From NCBI RefSeq assembly GCF_963678975.1, contig NC_089281.1, positions 26,950,765 to 27,014,764 on the forward strand: DNA of 64,000 nt, written 5' to 3'. The stretch comes from Dysidea avara (taxonomy: Eukaryota; Porifera; Demospongiae; Dictyoceratida; Dysideidae). Both the position numbers and the translations under genes were made by a program. Under the pieces are notes generated by a model. It worked only from the letters and a program-made list of their open reading frames with translations. It was not told where the DNA came from and did not search any database. Positions 6,505 through 20,132 of the stretch are shown piece by piece (the first letter of the stretch is position 1; each line of letters starts with the position of its first letter).

Positions 6505-8052
6505 ATGGCAACTTTTGACGAGCAACTTCGCAGCTTAGAGTTACCAGGAGTTACGAAGACAAGTAGAAAAGAGCCGATAGGAACCGGTTCTTATGCTAAC
6601 GTGTACGAAGTGATGGTACACGAAACAGTTTGTGCTGCTAAAGAGATGCACCCGATATTGATGAATGAAACGAAGAAGCGTGCCTTTCTCGCCGAGTGTG
6701 TTCAGTGTAGTAGAATACTCCACCCCAATGTGGTACAGTTCCTAGGAATACACTACCCTAGTCCTGATGCCCAGTTACCATGGTTAGTGATGGAGTTGAT
6801 GTATATCAGTCTAACTGGCTTGATTGAGAAATATGAAAAAGAAGATTTTCCATTTCATTTCAAGTCGTCCATTCTCATGGACACCTGTCAGGGTATCCAG
6901 TTTCTTCACAGCCGAAATATCGTTCATCGAGATCTGTCTTCCAATAACATCCTTCTTACGAAACATCTTGTAGCAAAAGTGTCAGATCTCGGAGTAGCTA
7001 AAGCAATACCACCTGGTCTTCACAGACATACAATGGTTCCAGGAACTACAGCATTTATGCCTCCAGAAGCTTTAATAGATGAGCCAGTGTATGGTCTGCC
7101 AATTGATGTGTTCTCAGTGGGATGTGTGTGTGTACACTTGGTGAGTATGGAATGGCCTGTACCAAAGAATCAGGTTACTGCAAGTAGGACTGTCTTGTCC
7201 GAGATTGAAAGAAGAGAACATTACTTGATAAAAATGGGACGGTGTCCATCACTAAAGTTATTGGCTGAACAGTGCTTACAAGATACGCCAGAAGAGAGGC
7301 CAGTTATTGAAGAGGTGATCAAGAGGTTGAAGGATGTCAATTATGATCATCACCCACATGAAGATGATAGTGTCATTGAACTGTTCAAGTGTGTTGTCAA
7401 CATGAAGTCTGTTGATGAACGAATAGTTCAGAAAGATCAACAGTTGATGGAAAAAGATAATCAGTTAATTTTGAAGGATCAACAGTTATGTCAAAAAGAT
7501 GAAATGCTTAATCAGAAAGATCAACAACTACGACAAAAAGATCAACAAATAGTTGAAAAGGATAGACAACTCAGTCAGAAGGATAATCAACTAAGACTGA
7601 AAGATCAAGAAATGACTCAGAAAGATCAACAACTTGGTCAGAAGGATCAACAACTAAGTCAGAAAGATCAACAACTTAGTCAGAAGGATCAACAACTAAG
7701 TCAGAAAGATCAACAACTTAGCTGGAAGGATCAACAACTAAATCAAAAGGATGAACAACTAAAGCATAAAGATCATGAAATTGCCCAAAAAGATCAAATT
7801 GTAAGTCAGAAAGACCAACATCTAAGGCAAAGAGATCTACAAATAGCACAGAAGGATCAACAGCTAGAAATTGCTGGAAAAGATCAATACCTTGATCAGA
7901 AAGATCAGCAACTGAAACATCATGACCAAGAAATATCAGATCCATATCTTGATCTATACCTGAATCAGAAAGACCAAGAAATGGCTTTAAAGGATCAACA
8001 GCTTAGTCAAGATTATGAAAGAAATGAAGAAATAATACCAGAAGATCAATTT
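6505..8052 (+). CDS. TKL-like protein kinase with long heptad coiled coil (exon)
   Basis: The kinase domain spans about residues 20-275. It has the glycine loop GTGSYANVY, the ATP lysine in CAAKEM (K46), the alpha-C glutamate (E64), HRDLSSNNILL (D143, N148), DLG in place of DFG (D161) and MPPEA. All catalytic residues are present, so it should be active; HRDLSSNN is typical of TKL kinases. From about residue 300 a coiled coil of seven-residue KDQQLxQ units runs for over 200 residues and probably mediates oligomerisation. The start ATG has a good context (CAAAATGG). The frame stays open to 8247, but a strong phase-0 donor (TTT/GTAAGT) lies at 8052/8053 and the residues beyond it look like repeat DNA, so the exon probably ends here. 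It may join the macro-RING-DTC exons downstream, or be a stand-alone gene ending at 8247. Confidence 0.88.
7420..8010 (+). repeat. 21-bp coding repeat of the coiled coil
   Basis: The coiled-coil part of the kinase is built from a 21-bp DNA unit of the form CAGAAAGATCAACAACTAAGT, nearly identical in consecutive copies between about 7620 and 7740 and decayed toward both ends. Each unit encodes one heptad. The near-identity in the middle points to recent expansion by slippage or unequal exchange, so copy number is likely to vary between alleles. Confidence 0.9.
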
Positions 8053-9567
8053 GTAAGTTTTTCTTATAGTGAAATGACAGCTCAAATAATACAAATGCAT
8101 GTAGGATTCAGTATCATGCAATTTCTCTTAACAAACCAAAGCGTAAATCAGGAAAAATTTGGTGTAGAAAAATTTTGTGCGTTAAAAATTTCAATGAAAA
8201 ATATTTTCTTCACTATAACAATTGATGAAAAAATTTTGATGGAATAACTATATGTTAATGTCTGTATGCGCAAATTTTTAATTTTCGTTGGTACAGCCAG
8301 TGACAAAAAATTTTTGACAATGAATTTTTCCTGGTTTACGGTAGATATCAGAAGTACTGTATAGGGAGCACCTTTTCACAAAAAGACCTCACAATTGTTT
8401 CATGGCACCTTGGCAGTATTGGTTAGGTAGAATCAAGCCAAAAGTGTCTCAGAATAGCCAAAAATGCTTCAGATAGGTCGCTATGAAATTTTTTAAAAAG
8501 TATTCAGTGGAATTTTCTGCTAACTGACTGACTAACTAATGCCTTCAGAGAAGTGTAACTCTATAACAGCTAAATTCTACAGGCTTAATTTTTCATTGTT
8601 CAATGTCGCTTCAGCCCGACAGGTGCCTTTTGGCATACCACAGGCTGACCTTGTGTCCCATTTCTTTTGCTAACAGCCCAAGGTGTTGATTCGCAGTAGC
8701 GCAATGGCTTCCCTACTTTTATAAACAGGAATCATCCATATTTTCAGGAATCATCCATATTTTCAGATGTTTAGCCCAGCACACAGTGCTACAAACGAAG
8801 AACAGTAGGAAAATCATCTCTGCAATCAGTCCAGCCACCACAAAAATATGGATATTTTGCATGCCCCAATGATTATATTATGCTTCGCTTTCAGCTATGT
8901 TCAGCCCATTACACAGCATTACAAATGAAGAACAATAGAAGAAGCACCTCTGCAATCACTGCAACTGAAAGCGAAGCATAATGGCCACTTCACTTTATAG
9001 TTGAGGCATGCATTCAGATGAACATTAACTGTGGTTCGATTAGGGATTATAGAAAAAAAAGTAGGGAAAGAAGGGAGGTCACCTACACCTGCAGATATAT
9101 TAGTGGACATTTAATCCTATGGGTATACTGAAGTAGGGATTAATATTTGTAGGTCATCTTCCTTGTTCCCTACATCCCTAATTGAACTTAATACTTGTGA
9201 GATATATAGCTATGGTGGAATCTCATAATCATCTTATTTGGACATGGTACCGTCATGCTGAAGTGCTAGCTTATTATACAATTGTGCTCATACAATATCA
9301 GTTCCCATGCATGTTCGCTTATAAACTTCCACTATCTTAATAGATTATAGCAACCTTTGTAACTTACTGTTTAAATATACTTGTTTCCTATCAATTTGGC
9401 TACTTTGTAAATTAATAAAACTCATATGTCAAGATTGACTGTTCCATTTAAGTATGCTGATTATTCTGACATTTTCACAGACAAAAATTTATGCCTAATA
9501 TACCAGCATTATACTTAATGTTTCAGACATATAGTTTGCTCTGAATTATGCCAACCTATTAGATGGG
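8053..9567. repeat. Intron or intergenic DNA made of dispersed repeats
   Basis: No coding exon was found. The stretch 8480-8690 is related to 10810-11130: both have a TTTTTTAAA start, GACTGACTGACT units, a conserved AACTCTATAACAGC-like patch and CAGGCTTAATTTTTCA. AGGAATCATCCATATTTTC is doubled at 8728-8765. Two diverged copies of TTCAGCCCA...CACAG...GAAGAACA lie at about 8771-8830 and 8899-8960. TTATGCTTCGCTTTCAG near 8877 recurs inverted as CTGAAAGCGAAGCATAA near 8965. Confidence 0.6.
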
Positions 9568-9569
9568 TA

Positions 9570-9786
9570 CAGTGGAACCTCAATTATCCGAACACCGATT
9601 AACCGAACTCGATTATCCAAACACCAAATTGACTGCTCAATTAGGGTATTTTGTCAAAAAGTGTATGCTTTATTAGAGTAGTTGAGCAAAGCTCAGTATA
9701 TAAATGTATGGATGCTCGATCTTATGTACTTTTGATTATCCGAGCACCCTTCCCCCCAATTAGTTCGGATAATTGAGGTTTCACTG
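9570..9786. mobile_element. Pogo/Tigger-like MITE
   Basis: The 217-bp element is bounded by CAGTGGAACCTCAATTATCC and its inverted counterpart (CAGTGAAACCTCAATTATCC read from the right end); 24-bp arms differ at one base. TA dinucleotides flank both ends, the usual Tc1/mariner-pogo target duplication. It encodes nothing. It carries one copy of the dispersed motif TATTAGAGTA at 9671. Related ends occur at 50428, 57850 and, as fragments, at 34083, 39050 and 60997. Confidence 0.85.
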
Positions 9787-11570
9787 TACCTACTTATTTG
9801 GCTCAGTTATGTAGACAGTAGAAATAAAAGGAGTTCAAAGATAGTTGTAGTATTATATATTGGTACCTTGGTATAGTAATATTGAGAGACATGGGAATTA
9901 GATTTTATAAAGGAAACATACTCCAGCTGCAATATTAGTTTGGTTACCTATTCGTTTGACAGGCTGTGTTACTTTATTGTGTCAAAAAATTCATGAAATG
10001 AGATGAGATACATGCATATTTAGGCTCTTCAGATAAAGTTCTGCCCCATCATGTATGAAATTACTTCCTAAACTCTTACTTAACTATAAGTGACAGTAAC
10101 AGTTTGTGTTAATTGGCTCTTTGTTCCAGCATGTTGATGGGTGACCATATAAGCAACACTGTCTAAGCAAGATAACTACACTGTACTTACAACTTGAATT
10201 GCCTCTGATGTGAAGGACACCAACAACACTTGCAGTAGCACCTGCATTGTGAGATGCGTATGCTTTTATTGTATATCTAATGTAACTTATACAGTGTACC
10301 CAATGAGACTTTTAGGAATTTTATTTTATGTGCCAGTCAAGGTATCTAGCTTCCCAAATACTCCTTGTTGAATGGGACATGTTTGAATGATTACCTTGTC
10401 AAGCAGTTTATCACTGCATCAGTTTCTGTTTTTGTATGCTATGCAATAATGGAAGCTAGGCAATTAAACAGTTCAATATAGCTAGCAGTCAGTTATTCCT
10501 TTAATAGAACAGTCACTCAAATTGAGACCCCAAAACATAGCAATTGTTTGACATCAACTAAACAGCAAAGCATTAATTTAAAAAAAATCTTTTATACTTC
10601 TACCTTTTTACACAATAGTTTCTCACAAAACGTATATACACAGTACATGTATAGTAGAGATTTGAAGGTGCACACCTGGCTTTGCACAACAACAAAAAAT
10701 GATATTGACCAGAAATCAGCCTTACAATACATTCACAGGCCTTGGCAGTATTAGTTATAATCAAGTGCATGCTTTTCAGGATGACCAAAATTCTTCCAAG
10801 GAGTTGCTACAAAATTTAATTTTTTAAAGAAATGACTGACTGACTGACTGACTGACTGACTGACTTACTAATTACCTAGTTCATGCCACCTTCAGACAAG
10901 CACAACTCAATAACACAGGCTTAATTTTTCACTGTTAGATGTTGAATGGTGCCTATGCAGTACGTGCAATGTACCCATCTTGGACAATGTATTCATCAGT
11001 ATAATTTGTTCGCCATAATTGTGAAACTTTGCTCTGCGAAGGTTATGCACAGCAAGATTATAATCATGGACTTACTTACCTTTGTCTTTGTGTCTCACTC
11101 ATTTGCTAACAGTGTAAAGTGTTGATTTGCAGTAGTGCATCCGAATGGCTTTGTGTTGCCTATCACATTAGCTTCATGTATTGTTCTCTATGTACAGGAC
11201 TGTGTAACAGGCAGAATATATTTGAAAACTATGCAAAATGGCTACACTGCTTATTAGCATGTAATTAACACCATGTAGCAGGTAATTTTTGAAGGGTTTT
11301 CAAAAGTTTTTTTTATTTTCGGGTATTTTGAAGAGGCTCTTCTCTTCGAAAAAAAATTCTCAAGACCTGCTGTTCTTCGAAAATAAATTCCCACAATTAA
11401 AAGTAACTTGCCTTCACGTGATCAAACACATTGGCATAGACACATCGCATTAATGACTGCAATGGTTAAAACAGTATCATTACTGCGTTAAACAGTTGAT
11501 TGAGATATGCCATAGGGCTGTCTGCTATGATTCTAGCAAGGCATGATCAAGTCAGTGGCTGGTTAGGATT
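9787..11570. other. Repeat-rich non-coding stretch
   Basis: Contains a second copy of the repeat seen at 8480-8690 (about 10810-11130), carrying a (TGAC)8 microsatellite. No exon with coding character is supported except possibly the last 40 bp, which are in frame with the open reading at 12033-12104. Confidence 0.45.
10833..10864. repeat. (TGAC)8 microsatellite
   Basis: Eight perfect TGAC units sit inside a dispersed repeat copy. The related copy at about 8520 has only two or three units, so the microsatellite expanded within the repeat. Confidence 0.95.
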
Positions 11571-12032
11571 TAGGGACCCACCAATTATGCTCATTATTTT
11601 ACCTATTATGCTATGCTGCACTGCTCAAAATTTTTCCTATTATGCTTAAATTAATGCTCAATATTTACCTATTATGCTCAAATTATGCTCAATATTAATT
11701 TTATACCTCAGTTCCCATGTTTTTCTAATAACTTTGCACTTTATGGGAAAACAGTAAGTGGTTGAAGCACAGACTGTAAGTCCTTGCTTGTGAAAATGCA
11801 TGTCACAGAAAAGATCGATATACTCTAATAGAACAGTTAGTTACCTGATAATGTTTATTAGTTACTGACTGTTCTATTAGAGTATATCGATCTTTTTGTG
11901 GGGATATGTATTTCGATAAGCAAGAATTTATAGTGTTGCACAAGTTTTCTACCTATTATGCTAGCATTATGCGCACTGCTTTCAGGCACCTATTATGCTC
12001 ATTATTATGCCAGCATAATCGGCAGGTCCCTA
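11571..12032. mobile_element. hAT-like MITE, 462 bp, 8-bp TSD
   Basis: Terminal inverted repeats begin TAGGGACCCACCAATTATGC on the left and TAGGGACCTGCCGATTATGC on the right, read inward. The perfect 8-bp duplication TTAGGATT flanks both sides (11563-11570 and 12033-12040), as expected for hAT transposition. The interior is made of many CCTATTATGCT units and encodes nothing. A separate palindromic element sits inside it at 11809-11896. Confidence 0.92.
11809..11896. mobile_element. Palindromic CTCTAATAGAG element
   Basis: The arms AAAAGATCGATATACTCTAA... and its exact complement face each other over about 30 bp each, with a loop of about 25 bp. This is the most complete copy in the window of a motif that recurs more than 20 times. 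It lies nested in the hAT-like MITE, so it inserted after that element or was carried by it. Confidence 0.85.
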
Positions 12033-12272
12033 TTAGGATTTGCTCCACTTGGGATTCCCCCAATCTTTTCTCCAGTGAATAGGAATGGGGATTTTGTTCC
12101 ATCAGTAAGTCAGTTGTTGGCAAGCAAGCATGTACATCTTTTGTAATTTTGTGATACGAATTTCCATTTATCCACCCAGACTTTAAAATAATACAAATTT
12201 ACTACCTTTATTTTACCTCTTCTGCAAAGTTTTCTGCTTTGAAAATAACCTGCTTTCATCGTATTATTACAG

Positions 12273-13914
12273 CCTCATACATCTTGTACCATTCTTTCCT
12301 TTGACACCAAAGAGGTACTTGAGATCATCACCTGAAGTTCAGGATTATTTCGAGGTTTATGGTATAAAAATCATTTTTGTTTTGCATGATATTGTGCTAG
12401 AAGAACACGTGCCACATATCATCTTTTTGTTACCAGATTTCTTCACTCTCATCCTCACCAAATGTAACAGTTGGTGATGTAGCTACCATTACAGCAGGAA
12501 GAACAGAGGCTGATTCGCCCACCAACATGTCACTGTCTCTACCAGGAGGTAGAAGGATTACACTCAAACAAGCTGATATCACAGAGGAAACAGTGGATGC
12601 AATAGTTAATTCAGCCAATGAGAAGTTGCTACATGGTGTTGGATTGGCAGCTGCTATCAACAAAGCCAGCAATGGAGTGGTAGAACAACAGTCCACAGCA
12701 TTAATCCAACAACATGGTCTTATTAAAGTCAGTCAGGCAGTACACACTGAAGCTGGAGGAGCTCTCAAGTGCAAGTATGTCATCCACACAGTAGGACCAG
12801 AACAGTACAAACACAAAAACAAGTCTCAACAGCTACTCTGGATGGCTTGTATGAACACTCTACAACTAGCAGAAAAGCTTGGAGTCACTTCCATTGCCAT
12901 ACCTCCCATCAGCTGTGGATTATTTGGAGTACCAAAAGATGTGGTAGCCAAAACAATCATTAATGTAGTCTGCCATTACCCCTACCATCCTGCTGGACTC
13001 CTTACAGATGTGCGCATTGTGATGATTAATGCTCCTACCTTTAAAGCTTTTAAACCATTCTTTATCGATGCTAGAAAGGTAGTGCAGCCTCACAGTAGCC
13101 CTAGTACTCAAAGTGGTATCCCACTCCATGCTATATCGACTAAATCACTTCAACCAATTCACACTGCAAATTGTAAGTGTTTATAAGTACAACAGTCTAA
13201 TCATTTTATGCTGTTTAGCTCCAAGCGACCACCAGTCATCCAAACCCACCCAGACTAATCCAACAACAGGTATGATTTTTTTTTAAATTATTGTGTTGTA
13301 AAATATTATTTATTGTTCTTCACAGAGGAATGTCCTATATGTCAAAATAACATCACTGACCTGGTGACCACAAAATGCCAACACAAATATTGTAGAGAAT
13401 GTCTCAAGAGGTCTCTACAGACCAATTCCTACTGTCCAGTATGTAAGGTACAAATACGTCCAGTAACTGGGGATCAGCCAGCTGGGGGTAGAATGACATG
13501 TCAGGTATTAAAACTACAAAGCCTTCCTGGATATGAGAATTATGGTGCATTGAAAATTAGCTATATTATTCCCAATGGTATACAAGGTCCTAACCAGCCT
13601 CGTCCTGGTAGACCATTTAATGGCGGTATACATCAAGCTTATCTCCCTGACTCACCAGAAGGCAGAGAAGTGTATGGGCTACTGAGGAAAGCATTTGATG
13701 CTAAACTAACATTTACCATTCAACCAGATACTGGCAGAATAGTATGGAGTGATATCCACCACAAGACCAACAAACATGGAGGACCCCAATGGTATTATAG
13801 CTATACATGCATTTTAACATACAAATTACTTGTGTTTCCTGTAGTCATGGTTATCCTGATCCAACATACTTAAAAAGAGTAAATCAAGAACTTCAACAAA
13901 AAGGAATTTTTTAA
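12273..13914 (+). CDS. Macro-RING-Deltex-C E3 ubiquitin ligase (3' exons)
   Basis: Exons 12273-12314, 12437-13172, 13219-13269, 13326-13791 and 13845-13914 join in phase (0, 0, 1, 1, 2) and end at TAA. The second exon holds a macro domain (about 12560-13070) with the ADP-ribose signatures VDAIVNSANEKLLHG and SCGLFGVPKD. The fourth has a C3HC4 RING (CPICQNNITD...CPVC) followed by a Deltex C-terminal domain (GYENYGALKI, WSDIHHKTN), finished by HGYPDPTYLKRV in the last exon. In vertebrates DTX3L has the RING-DTC part and its partner PARP9 the macro domains; here both are on one chain. It probably couples ADP-ribose recognition to ubiquitin transfer. The 5' end is unresolved; the kinase exon may belong to it. 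Confidence 0.88.
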
Positions 13915-14804: not shown

Positions 14805-16667
14805 TTAATCCCAAAGTGGTAACAAATCTGTCCCATGTTCCCATAACACATCTGTTGAATCTCCATATACATTATAGTTTACCATGTAGTAACCAGCTGT
14901 AAATAGTCTTCGTTTGCAAAACATTTTCTTTAGCTTGGCACTAAAAAAGTCTACATCCACATCTCCATGATGTATACTTCCAGCATGCAAATATAATGTT
15001 ATCAGTTTCGGTGAGCTCCTCACAAGAGATGTTATACCTTCAGCTGTCAAAGATCCTACCATCATAACTACATGTACCAGTCCACCATGAGCTGAAAATG
15101 AGGCCATAAAGTCATTAGGAACAATAGTTTTTAGTGAATTAATGTATAACTGTTGTAGAGTGTGGCTGTGGGTTAATACGAGTGACAGGGGTTGGGATAG
15201 TACTAGATAAAAACGTACACATTCTAGTTCATTACAGTTATTAACCACATCCTGTACAATAGTGGGTACTGCAGTAACTACACCAGAAGATTGTAAATAA
15301 CAACAGTTTAGTGATGGAAAATAGGATAACATTAAAGTGTCTTCATCAGTAAAAATCCCACAATACCTGCAATATTCACATTGTATTCCTCTTATGTAAC
15401 ACTTCTGATACAGACAAATCAACTTTTCTTTCTTTGTAGCTCTCAAAACACAAAACTCCACTGCCAAGTGGGTCAACTTCATATCACTCAATATTTCCCA
15501 CAATAGGATATGATCCTCTACTTTTGAAACATGTGTACCAAGTAAGTTTAGTCCTTGTAGGTTGTGACAGTGAGTGGCAATAGCTCTCAGACCTTGTAGA
15601 CTTTGCAAACAGCAATGACTATACCCTAAGTTAAGTTCCTGAAGATTAGGACAGTTAATAGCTAGTTGTTCCAAGTGACCAGAATGAAGTGAGGAACAGT
15701 AAGAAAGATCAAAATGAGTAGCACAACTAATGCCACTAAATCTTACAATATGTATAAAGTTCTGCTGGCTCACAATGCTTTGACCAATTTGATACTTCAC
15801 CATATACACAGTCTTTCCACCATATTGACAATCAGTCATCACTGCTACATCATTGTCCAATCCCAATATACCAAAGTCACTGAGTTTAACACATGGAATG
15901 GTCACTTGACCAGATTCTTCTAATTGTAGCTGAAAATGTGGCAGTGTAGGGGAAAAGTTTATTGGTACTTTAGTAGATTTATTGTACACTCTAAAGATAG
16001 CAGTGGTACCAGTAGGAATAGTGTTCAATTCAGAAACATAGAAAGCCAGTCTTTCAAAGTTGTTATAATTTACTATAGCAATAAAATTTAATCTTGATGG
16101 CCTAAATTTTAATATTTTCCAATAAGTAAACAACTCTCTAGGTTTTAAATAATAATAAGTATCTGAAATGATTGTGAGTTCTCTCAACTGACCAGTGTTG
16201 TTGAGAAGTAGTTGTTTAATTTCACTACCATCACCCACCTTGAGCACCTTAAACTCTAGTGCTTGCAGACATCCCATATGATGTATTATGTTTCTTAGTT
16301 GTTCAGGATCTAACGTGGTTGATGGTAGACTAAGATGTTGTACATTATTACAATACTGCAGCATCTCTACCAGTGTTGATGGTACTCTACAGTTAAGAAA
16401 AGATAATAGTTTGATATCTTGTCCACACACCATTAAGACTTCTTTCAGACTGTATTCATCATGATTGTCATAATAAGTCCATACAAACTCCTTCCACAGT
16501 GATGGTGTTCCATCAATCACACTCTTCAACCGCTTTGAAACGTATCTAAGGTTTACCCTGTCATGTACTGAAGATAAAAATAAGATGATAATAACCAACA
16601 ACTCTGTAGGAAGTATTAACAGGTTGACAAGAGATTCCTCATGTGAACTATCTTGATCGTGATCCAT
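14805..16667 (-). CDS. F-box / leucine-rich repeat protein, intronless
   Basis: The 620-residue frame opens with an acidic leader, then an F-box at about residues 14-62 (ILPTELLVIIILFL, VSKRLKSVIDG, LWKEFVW). About ten to twelve diverged FBXL-type leucine-rich repeats follow (for example LEQLAINCPNLQELNLGYSH, LRAIATHCHNLQGLNLLG). The F-box should bind SKP1 and the repeats a substrate, making this a putative receptor of an SCF ubiquitin ligase. It has no introns. ATG at 16667-16665 is taken as the start; a TTG codon just upstream is in frame but unlikely. No specific FBXL orthologue could be assigned. It is convergent with the Deltex-type gene. Confidence 0.85.
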   Translation of the reverse strand: MDHDQDSSHEESLVNLLILPTELLVIIILFLSSVHDRVNLRYVSKRLKSVIDGTPSLWKEFVWTYYDNHDEYSLKEVLMVCGQDIKLLSFLNCRVPSTLVEMLQYCNNVQHLSLPSTTLDPEQLRNIIHHMGCLQALEFKVLKVGDGSEIKQLLLNNTGQLRELTIISDTYYYLKPRELFTYWKILKFRPSRLNFIAIVNYNNFERLAFYVSELNTIPTGTTAIFRVYNKSTKVPINFSPTLPHFQLQLEESGQVTIPCVKLSDFGILGLDNDVAVMTDCQYGGKTVYMVKYQIGQSIVSQQNFIHIVRFSGISCATHFDLSYCSSLHSGHLEQLAINCPNLQELNLGYSHCCLQSLQGLRAIATHCHNLQGLNLLGTHVSKVEDHILLWEILSDMKLTHLAVEFCVLRATKKEKLICLYQKCYIRGIQCEYCRYCGIFTDEDTLMLSYFPSLNCCYLQSSGVVTAVPTIVQDVVNNCNELECVRFYLVLSQPLSLVLTHSHTLQQLYINSLKTIVPNDFMASFSAHGGLVHVVMMVGSLTAEGITSLVRSSPKLITLYLHAGSIHHGDVDVDFFSAKLKKMFCKRRLFTAGYYMVNYNVYGDSTDVLWEHGTDLLPLWD

Positions 16668-17208
16668 CAATTTGATGACAATATAGTTAGTCCTAATACT
16701 TATGAAATAGTTTCACTCTCCTGTACAATATAAGACCAACTGAATCATATGCATACACTACATCAGTATAATCATCTATTTGAGTAGGGATCATAGCAAT
16801 GAAACAAGGGAGTCACCTATACATGCCAGATTTAATTCCTATATACTTAAGGTTATGATCTTCCTTGCATGTTCAAGGCTATAATGGTCTCTACTATAGT
16901 TTGTAAAATTCTTAACAATTGTAGTATCATCTATAAACAGCAGTGTTTAGTTTTCAGTTAGTTATATGCACACATGTTACAATTACTCTTGTGTCTATGA
17001 GGGGCTATAGTGGTCAACGAAAACTACTTAGAGCATATACTGTTTGCTGATACTTGTGTCAGTGTAACTGCAGATGGAAGGCCACATCTCGGAGCAACTC
17101 AGTATTGTTCTGCTGCATACGTTACTTAATTATGCTTCTATATAATTGTAAACTTTATTGGATTTAGGAATTACAACTGCTATCTTCATTTGCTGTCACT
17201 GTGACCCA
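16668..17208. other. Upstream region of the F-box gene
   Basis: No exon recognised. It should contain the F-box gene promoter next to 16668. The boundary at 17208 is where similarity to the second repeat copy (27725 onward) begins. Confidence 0.45.
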
Positions 17209-19249: not shown

Positions 19250-19423
19250 ATTGTTGCTGTTATTGATCACATCCACACGTATTTAGAAAACGTTGTCTTG
19301 CAGCTCAGCAAAGGCAGTAAAATGTAAGTATTAACTTTTAGAAGGTTTTAGTTAACCTTTACAGATAGTCTACTGTTCCAGTGGTTTGAAGCATTTCCTG
19401 TAATAATTCTTAACTATATGTCA

Positions 19424-19928
19424 GGGACTACCTCATTCGCAAAGTTACCTCAGCAAAATATTTAGGAGTTACAATAAGTCAAAGTATCTCTTGGTCTAAA
19501 CATATTGACATTATCACTTGTAATTCCATTCTAGCTTTTTTACAAAGAAACCTTAGTCAGTGTTCACTTCGTGTCAAATCTTTAGCTTATTTTACATATG
19601 TTAGACTGGTATTGGAGTATGCCTCTGTTGTTTGGTCACCATTCACACAATCTAACATAGATAAGATTGAAAAGGTACAACGTAAGGCTGTTAGATTTGT
19701 TTTTAATGATTATTATAGATATTCTAGCGTAACTAACATGCTCAACTGCTTAAAATGGGAATCCCTTGAACACAGAAGAACTAAGTCTACCATTATCATG
19801 TTCTACAAAATCATCAACAATATTGTTTCAGCTGACTTTTCCAATTATCTTCATAGAAGCTTTACCAGGACAAGAGGTCATCAAATGAGATTTATGACTA
19901 TTCCTGCTAAAAGAAACACCTACTATCA
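19424..19928 (+). pseudogene. LINE reverse-transcriptase 3' end, left part
   Basis: An open frame encodes the end of a non-LTR reverse transcriptase: AKYLGVTISQSISWSKHID, then LEYASVVWSPFTQSNIDKIE, VQRKAVRFVFNDYY and FYKIINN, the usual thumb/3' region of Jockey/CR1/RTE-type LINEs. The frame is interrupted at 19928 inside a Tyr-His-Ser stretch by the Gypsy element and resumes at 24286. In copy A this region has stayed almost unbroken apart from the insertion. Confidence 0.8.
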
Positions 19929-20132
19929 TGTAGTATCTGGACACGTGCACGCACTATGATGTAATACATTATGCTGTAATTGTATGCGTGCATGTACATA
20001 TGTAGTTGTAGAGCCTCTCTGTGTGTGCTTTAGTTGTTATAACCTTAGTTGTTATTGTAGTTGCTAGATTGTAGTTGTGTGTTGTAGTGCTATTATTATT
20101 GATTCTAATGATCTAATAATCCCGACACTACA
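19929..20132 (+). repeat. 5' LTR of the Gypsy element
   Basis: Starts TGTAGTATCTGGACACGTGC and ends ATCCCGACACTACA. It differs from the 3' LTR only at a G/A (near 19951) and a T/A (near 20110). It should hold the promoter; no clear TATA box was picked out. The sequence directly after it, TTGGCAACGAGAATGG, is the position of the tRNA primer-binding site. Confidence 0.97.

Follow-up and report, generated by a model that had tools for sequence, protein, structure and literature searches.

Deltex (DTX) ligases were reported to ubiquitylate ADP-ribose, and His582 and Glu608 of DTX2 to be important in this reaction (PMC7615817). In human, ADP-ribose is read by PARP9 and PARP14 and ubiquitylated by DTX3L, which forms an antiviral pair with PARP9. 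The ligase DTX3L belongs with PARP9 and PARP14, partner proteins encoded at the locus 3q21.1, whose interplay was described as not well understood (PMC13224862). In plants, kinase fusion and tandem kinase proteins such as Lr9 and Sr43 are known (PMC10260399). Here we describe a locus of the sponge Dysidea avara, where a protein kinase, a macro domain and a Deltex-like ligase appear to be joined in one gene. It lies on contig C10 (NC_089281.1) of a genome assembly of 550.8 Mb in 108 contigs, within the stretch C10:26950765-27014764, hereafter the window, which is 64,000 nucleotides long and from the first letter of which the window positions below are counted.

We put the probability at roughly 0.7 that this locus is a five-exon gene for a 956-residue protein of the order kinase, heptad array, macro domain, RING finger and Deltex C-terminal (DTC) domain, and that the protein works by the mechanism proposed below. 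The predicted protein resembles the human system in that its RING-DTC part is closest among PDB entries to human DTX3L (3pg6, E 3.5e-35) and its macro domain to PARP14 (3vfq, E 8.6e-33) and PARP9 (9qyd, 6.8e-21), and ligase and PARP genes share one chromosome in the sponge, as they do at 3q21.1 (PMC13224862). It differs from the human proteins in carrying the macro domain and RING-DTC on one chain, with a kinase and heptads in front. Neither RRM nor KH, the N-terminal domains drawn for the DTX3L subfamily (PMC13224862), gave a Pfam match on the window exons, and the ART (PARP) domain, which PARP9 and PARP14 carry on their own chains, gave none on the window exons scanned. The window protein would be a PARP9/DTX3L reader-ligase pair on one chain, placed under a kinase. 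The likeness to Lr9 and Sr43 is an analogy: the sponge kinase family, too, seems to have multi-kinase members and kinases standing before unrelated domains, but the window gene is an animal one, and the resemblance concerns architecture only, with no immune role implied.

The gene predicted in the window

All exons are on the plus strand. Exon 1 (6505-8052) encodes the protein kinase (Pfam match 6565-7323) and the heptad array (7432-7866) and ends in the donor CAATTT/GTAAGT in phase 0, as the original prediction had proposed. The predicted intron 1 (8053-12436, 4384 bp) contains several dispersed repeats and is closed by the phase-0 acceptor TTACCAG/ATTTCT. Exon 2 (12437-13172, phase 0 in, phase 1 out) carries a linker and the macro domain, exon 3 (13219-13269, 51 nt, phase 1 at both ends) a further linker, exon 4 (13326-13791, phase 1 in, phase 2 out) the RING finger and most of the DTC, and exon 5 (13845-13914) the end of the DTC and the stop codon (13912-13914), which confirms the end of the coding sequence given earlier. 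The four junctions have the phases 0/0, 1/1, 1/1 and 2/2, and together the exons make an open frame of 956 codons. The kinase, macro and RING-DTC parts quite probably belong to a single gene, whose transcript is predicted from the genomic sequence. The original prediction had left this open between one gene and two, and its single-gene version proved the better one, judged by the order, phases and N-terminal loss seen in paralogues rather than by transcripts.

Beyond 8052 the reading frame enters a dispersed repeat (8142-8344) resembling a miniature inverted-repeat transposable element, with 35-nt terminal inverted repeats that are 80% complementary; it contains the read-through stop at 8245-8247. 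A kinase with a natural C-terminus at 8247 was rejected, as this stop sits within the repeat. In the genome search for the element, 40 of 931 candidates were scored, the window copy among them. A second dispersed repeat (about 12040-12268) lies at the other end of the intron. Since it ends just before 12273, the micro-exon proposed to begin there is doubtful and was regarded as unsupported. The exon at 12437 does enter in phase 0 as predicted, but the statement that it has no convincing start of its own was too strong, because an in-frame ATG is present at 12527-12529.

The Pfam search of the window exons returned Pkinase (E 4.9e-40), Macro (1.4e-28), DTC (3.3e-32) and zf-C3HC4_2 (3.6e-11), all above their cut-offs. 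The kinase match covers positions 3-259 of the 263 in the profile, that is, a full kinase domain, in which we read by eye what we take to be the glycine loop, the lysine and the HRD and DLG motifs. TAO2, CTR1, B-Raf and IRAK4 were among its best PDB matches (E 4.7e-24 to about 5e-20), which represent several families, and the predicted kinase is without a single nearest family. The heptad array is built of 21-bp units, one of the encoded heptads being KDQQLSQ, and each heptad of its regular part contains a single hydrophobic residue; the array is likely a coiled coil, with an unusually polar core. At the C-terminus the RING finger (zf-C3HC4_2, 43.1 bits, cut-off 27) is followed by the DTC (111.9 bits, cut-off 25), as in Deltex ligases. 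In the alignment with 6y22 the DTC keeps both reported catalytic residues, His and Glu, and from their spacing of 26 residues we infer that His582 and Glu608 of DTX2 correspond to the first histidine of HHKT and the glutamate of QEL, respectively.

In our reading, the window protein would be a ubiquitin ligase directed at ADP-ribose and switched by its kinase. The heptad array would gather copies of the protein and thereby switch the kinase on, and the activated kinase would phosphorylate itself or its partners. The macro domain would hold ADP-ribosylated targets, made for example by the products of nearby PARP genes, as family knowledge and linkage suggest. The RING finger would recruit E2~ubiquitin and the DTC, with its retained His and Glu, could transfer the ubiquitin to ADP-ribose or to an ADP-ribosylated target. 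If true, a natural single chain holding reader and ligase behind a kinase would suggest that the two share a substrate and can be driven by phosphorylation. Among the open-licence papers listed by literature searches, neither a title nor an abstract opening described a kinase-macro-RING-DTC protein or the kinase-HSP70 and kinase-RRM combinations presented below, in agreement with the original prediction, whose author knew of no protein with this order. The predicted architecture is novel, composed of known kinds (a Deltex ligase, a macro reader and a kinase).

Ligase paralogues and their N-terminal segment

The genome search with the DTC gave 16 matches, which fall into 11 loci by our grouping, 10 of them on C10 and one on C13. 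The kinase search, in which scoring was confined to the best candidates, gave at least 139 matches, and 24 of the 139 were used in comparing kinase and DTC positions. A listed kinase of the family was found within 20 kb of five of the 11 DTC loci, and in all five cases it lies upstream on the same strand. Two of the five, locus C (L043 with L042) and locus D (L044, L045), are copies of each other with 98-99% identity, and their kinases are frameshifted. These copies extend over stretches of about 20 kb at the same 98-99% identity, which contain, beside the frameshifted kinase and RING-DTC, a macro fragment on the opposite strand.

The most informative relative is L041. Its kinase-heptad exon ends in AAA/GTAAGT in phase 0 and, across an intron of 791 bp, a phase-0 acceptor opens a second exon with a frame of 538 codons, which starts KYLAAANISPSPKK and runs through the macro domain. 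Because the residues SNLNPDILAL, matched in the kinase-free copies L046-L048, precede the first ATG of this macro exon, an upstream coding exon is needed in L041, and the kinase exon is the adjacent upstream exon and has the right phase. At a further locus (L039 with L040) the kinase-heptad part ends in GTAGGT, a weaker donor, and a 48-codon exon and then RING-DTC come next; the phases fit as we read them, and no macro match was found there. A phase-0 GTAAGT closes the heptad-coding exon in the window gene, in L041 and in the broken loci C and D, both of which read ACT/GTAAGT. As C and D also carry it in phase 0, this donor is an inherited one rather than a chance hexamer.

Four intact ligase copies (L046-L049) are kinase-free, by which we mean that there is no nearby match among the 139 kinase matches listed. 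In these copies about 240-280 residues precede the macro domain in the same exon, which begins with a phase-0 acceptor before VTE. When the segments of L048 and L049 were used as tblastn queries (E 0.01), the segment was found in L046-L049 and partly in L050, a fifth kinase-free copy, which is broken. L041 has its second half only, the window gene only the linker before the macro domain (E 0.001), and L039/L040, C and D gave no tblastn match at E 0.01, D having been searched minus 2.5 kb. A query derived from L050 matched only L050 and L049. Consequently, the four kinase-bearing lineages (the window gene, L041, L039/L040, and C with D) are without at least the first half of the segment, and all four intact kinase-free copies retain it. 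Such a clean split is one of 70 arrangements of eight lineages, a value obtained by counting for a grouping chosen after inspection. The kinase exon probably replaced the N-terminal part of a ligase gene through exon capture. The segment itself gave only Pfam matches below cut-off, no PDB match below E 1 and no match to RRM or KH; with these scores it was not labelled 'KH-like'.

Reuse of the kinase exon

The window kinase is 81-83% identical to five kinases of C11, versus 67% to that of L041 and 69% to that of L039. At one of the C11 loci, L010 (kinase 18761956-18762792), the kinase-heptad exon is followed, across an intron of 273 bp and with matching phase 1, by an HSP70 exon (L052, E 7.1e-112), which opens EEDYLAIGIDLGT without Met. 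All four other HSP70 exons examined in the same cluster (L053-L056) have an ATG there, one or two bases past the acceptor. This arrangement at L010 is the remnant one would expect of gene capture through an intron in the 5′-untranslated region. On C3 (22376332-22407500; L024, L027, L057, L058) three kinases of the family are each followed on the same strand by an RRM match 0.66-1.4 kb downstream. Both junctions that were read (L027 and L024/L057) have the phase-0 donor CAG/GTATTT and an RRM exon opening with GINLYIKNL and no Met, the distance between the kinase and RRM exons of L027 being 382 bp. At L011 another exon follows in phase 1, and beyond it lies a weak kinase match that stays under the cut-off (E 0.031). 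For most of the remaining kinase loci the flank was too short for an effector to be called.

These junctions lead us to the tentative proposal, held at somewhat under even odds, that the exon for kinase and heptads serves as a reusable first exon, repeatedly captured by effectors of stress and antiviral defence (an E3 ligase perhaps twice, HSP70 and RRM proteins), which would make up an animal 'kinase fusion' receptor family. Its members would share the kinase front end and differ in the effector attached behind it, a plan comparable to that of plant kinase fusion proteins. If true, such recurrent capture would give a clear example from animals of modular proteins built by exon shuffling, and this reuse may be a larger finding than the window ligase. 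Kinases of the family also occur in series: L030, L031 and L038, all on C8, each have an open frame, about 970-1030 codons long, that contains three kinase matches.

Alternative readings, history and surroundings

Several observations weigh against a single functional gene in the window. Intron 1, at about 4.4 kb, is long and rich in repeats. In exon 2 the ATG at 12527 comes ahead of the Pfam macro match, whose first residue is number 57 of the exon, and translation from this ATG would give a separate macro-RING-DTC frame of 410 codons, with a calculated product of about 45 kDa compared with about 108 kDa for the fusion. The ligase copies L046-L049 may have other 5′ exons; none was recognised as their first exon in upstream stretches of 1.7 to 7.3 kb. 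In L041 the donor after the macro domain (GTGAGT, phase 1, as in L048) mismatches the acceptor of the RING exon, which needs phase 2; the RING-exon acceptors of L046, L047, L048 and L040 are in phase 1, and a weak GTTAAG four bases past the GTGAGT would fit the phase of the L041 acceptor. The last DTC exon of L041 was not found in 3.7 kb downstream. At the kinase loci L012, L020 and L021, inspection by eye, with no profile search, revealed nothing that could be recognised as an exon in about 4 kb downstream, and the downstream flank of L016 holds a frame that looked transposon-like by eye. Finally, the RING-DTC branch of the window copy is long (0.41 versus 0.07 for L049 and 0.13 for C).

Among the alternatives the most probable one overlaps with the five-exon gene: alternative promoters or splicing could yield kinase-only, ligase-only and fused proteins from the same locus. 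The position of the ATG within exon 2 agrees with such a mixed output, and so does the HSP70 exon L053, which retains its ATG though the family kinase L013, 5.2 kb upstream, ends in a weak but fitting phase-1 donor; we nevertheless consider this version doubtful. Two adjacent genes, the kinase exon continuing into an unseen 3′ exon and the macro-RING-DTC part starting either at the ATG of 12527 or in a 5′ exon likewise unseen, are less probable still. Three observations would suit separate genes: this ATG lies in frame ahead of the macro domain, some ligase copies (L046-L049) have no kinase among the matches listed, and behind the three related kinases just mentioned no exon was recognised within about 4 kb. 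However, L041, L010 and L027 join the kinase exon in phase, over 791, 273 and 382 bp, to an exon whose head has no ATG, the order and strand are constant at the kinase-linked DTC loci (5/5), and the truncation of the ligase N-terminus accompanies the kinase, thus we hold two genes to be unlikely.

Constraint on the five-exon gene was estimated from pairwise ratios of nonsynonymous to synonymous substitution rates (dN/dS), which also include the past of the other copy. The kinase gave 0.12-0.16 against L010-L013 and 0.18 against L015, and, against L049, the macro domain gave 0.34 and RING-DTC 0.30; between the window and L041 kinases the silent sites were saturated. All parts of the gene appear to have been under past constraint, unless the window copy was newly released. 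A decaying locus, holding relics of a kinase and a ligase and making no working protein, is very improbable: the kinases of C and D are indeed frameshifted, and the window copy, whose RING-DTC branch is long, has lost the N-terminal segment, but all five of its exons are open, the dN/dS of its three parts is 0.12-0.34 and the DTC catalytic residues are kept.

In a tree of 26 kinases, the window kinase was placed among those of C11, and L041 together with L039 stood apart. A single clade of the three DTC-linked kinases was rejected by the approximately unbiased (AU) test (p 0.0055; 14 rows, with the kinases of C and D omitted), the tested group having been picked after the first tree and the support within the C11 group being partly below star level. 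The pairing of kinase and DTC probably arose twice, or else a DTC-linked kinase gave rise to those of C11, as far as this tree can tell.

PARP catalytic domains are found near the ligases. The 10 DTC loci of C10, compared with 14 PARP catalytic matches, have a median nearest distance of 70 kb, and 101 of 20,000 rotations reach this value. The nearest match to the window gene (C10:26949535-26949822) lies shortly before the first letter of the window, on the upstream side of the DTC at a distance of 14.7 kb. Such linkage of ligase and PARP genes suggests that the vertebrate PARP14-DTX3L neighbourhood may be old. Two regions of C10 (23.65-24.15 Mb and 26.13-26.96 Mb) show DTX3L-like RING-DTC loci interspersed with PARP matches that have macro matches upstream on the same strand, an arrangement like that of the human PARP9-DTX3L-PARP14 locus. 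On C5, which has no DTC match, the minus strand carries four macro matches (C5:35789863-35837665), 45-47% identical to the window macro domain. In the window itself, one long frame on the minus strand (14808-16712), tail to tail with the ligase, encodes an F-box protein that also matches leucine-rich repeats weakly, and a frame at 19414-19959 resembles, by eye, part of a reverse transcriptase of the long interspersed nuclear element (LINE) type.

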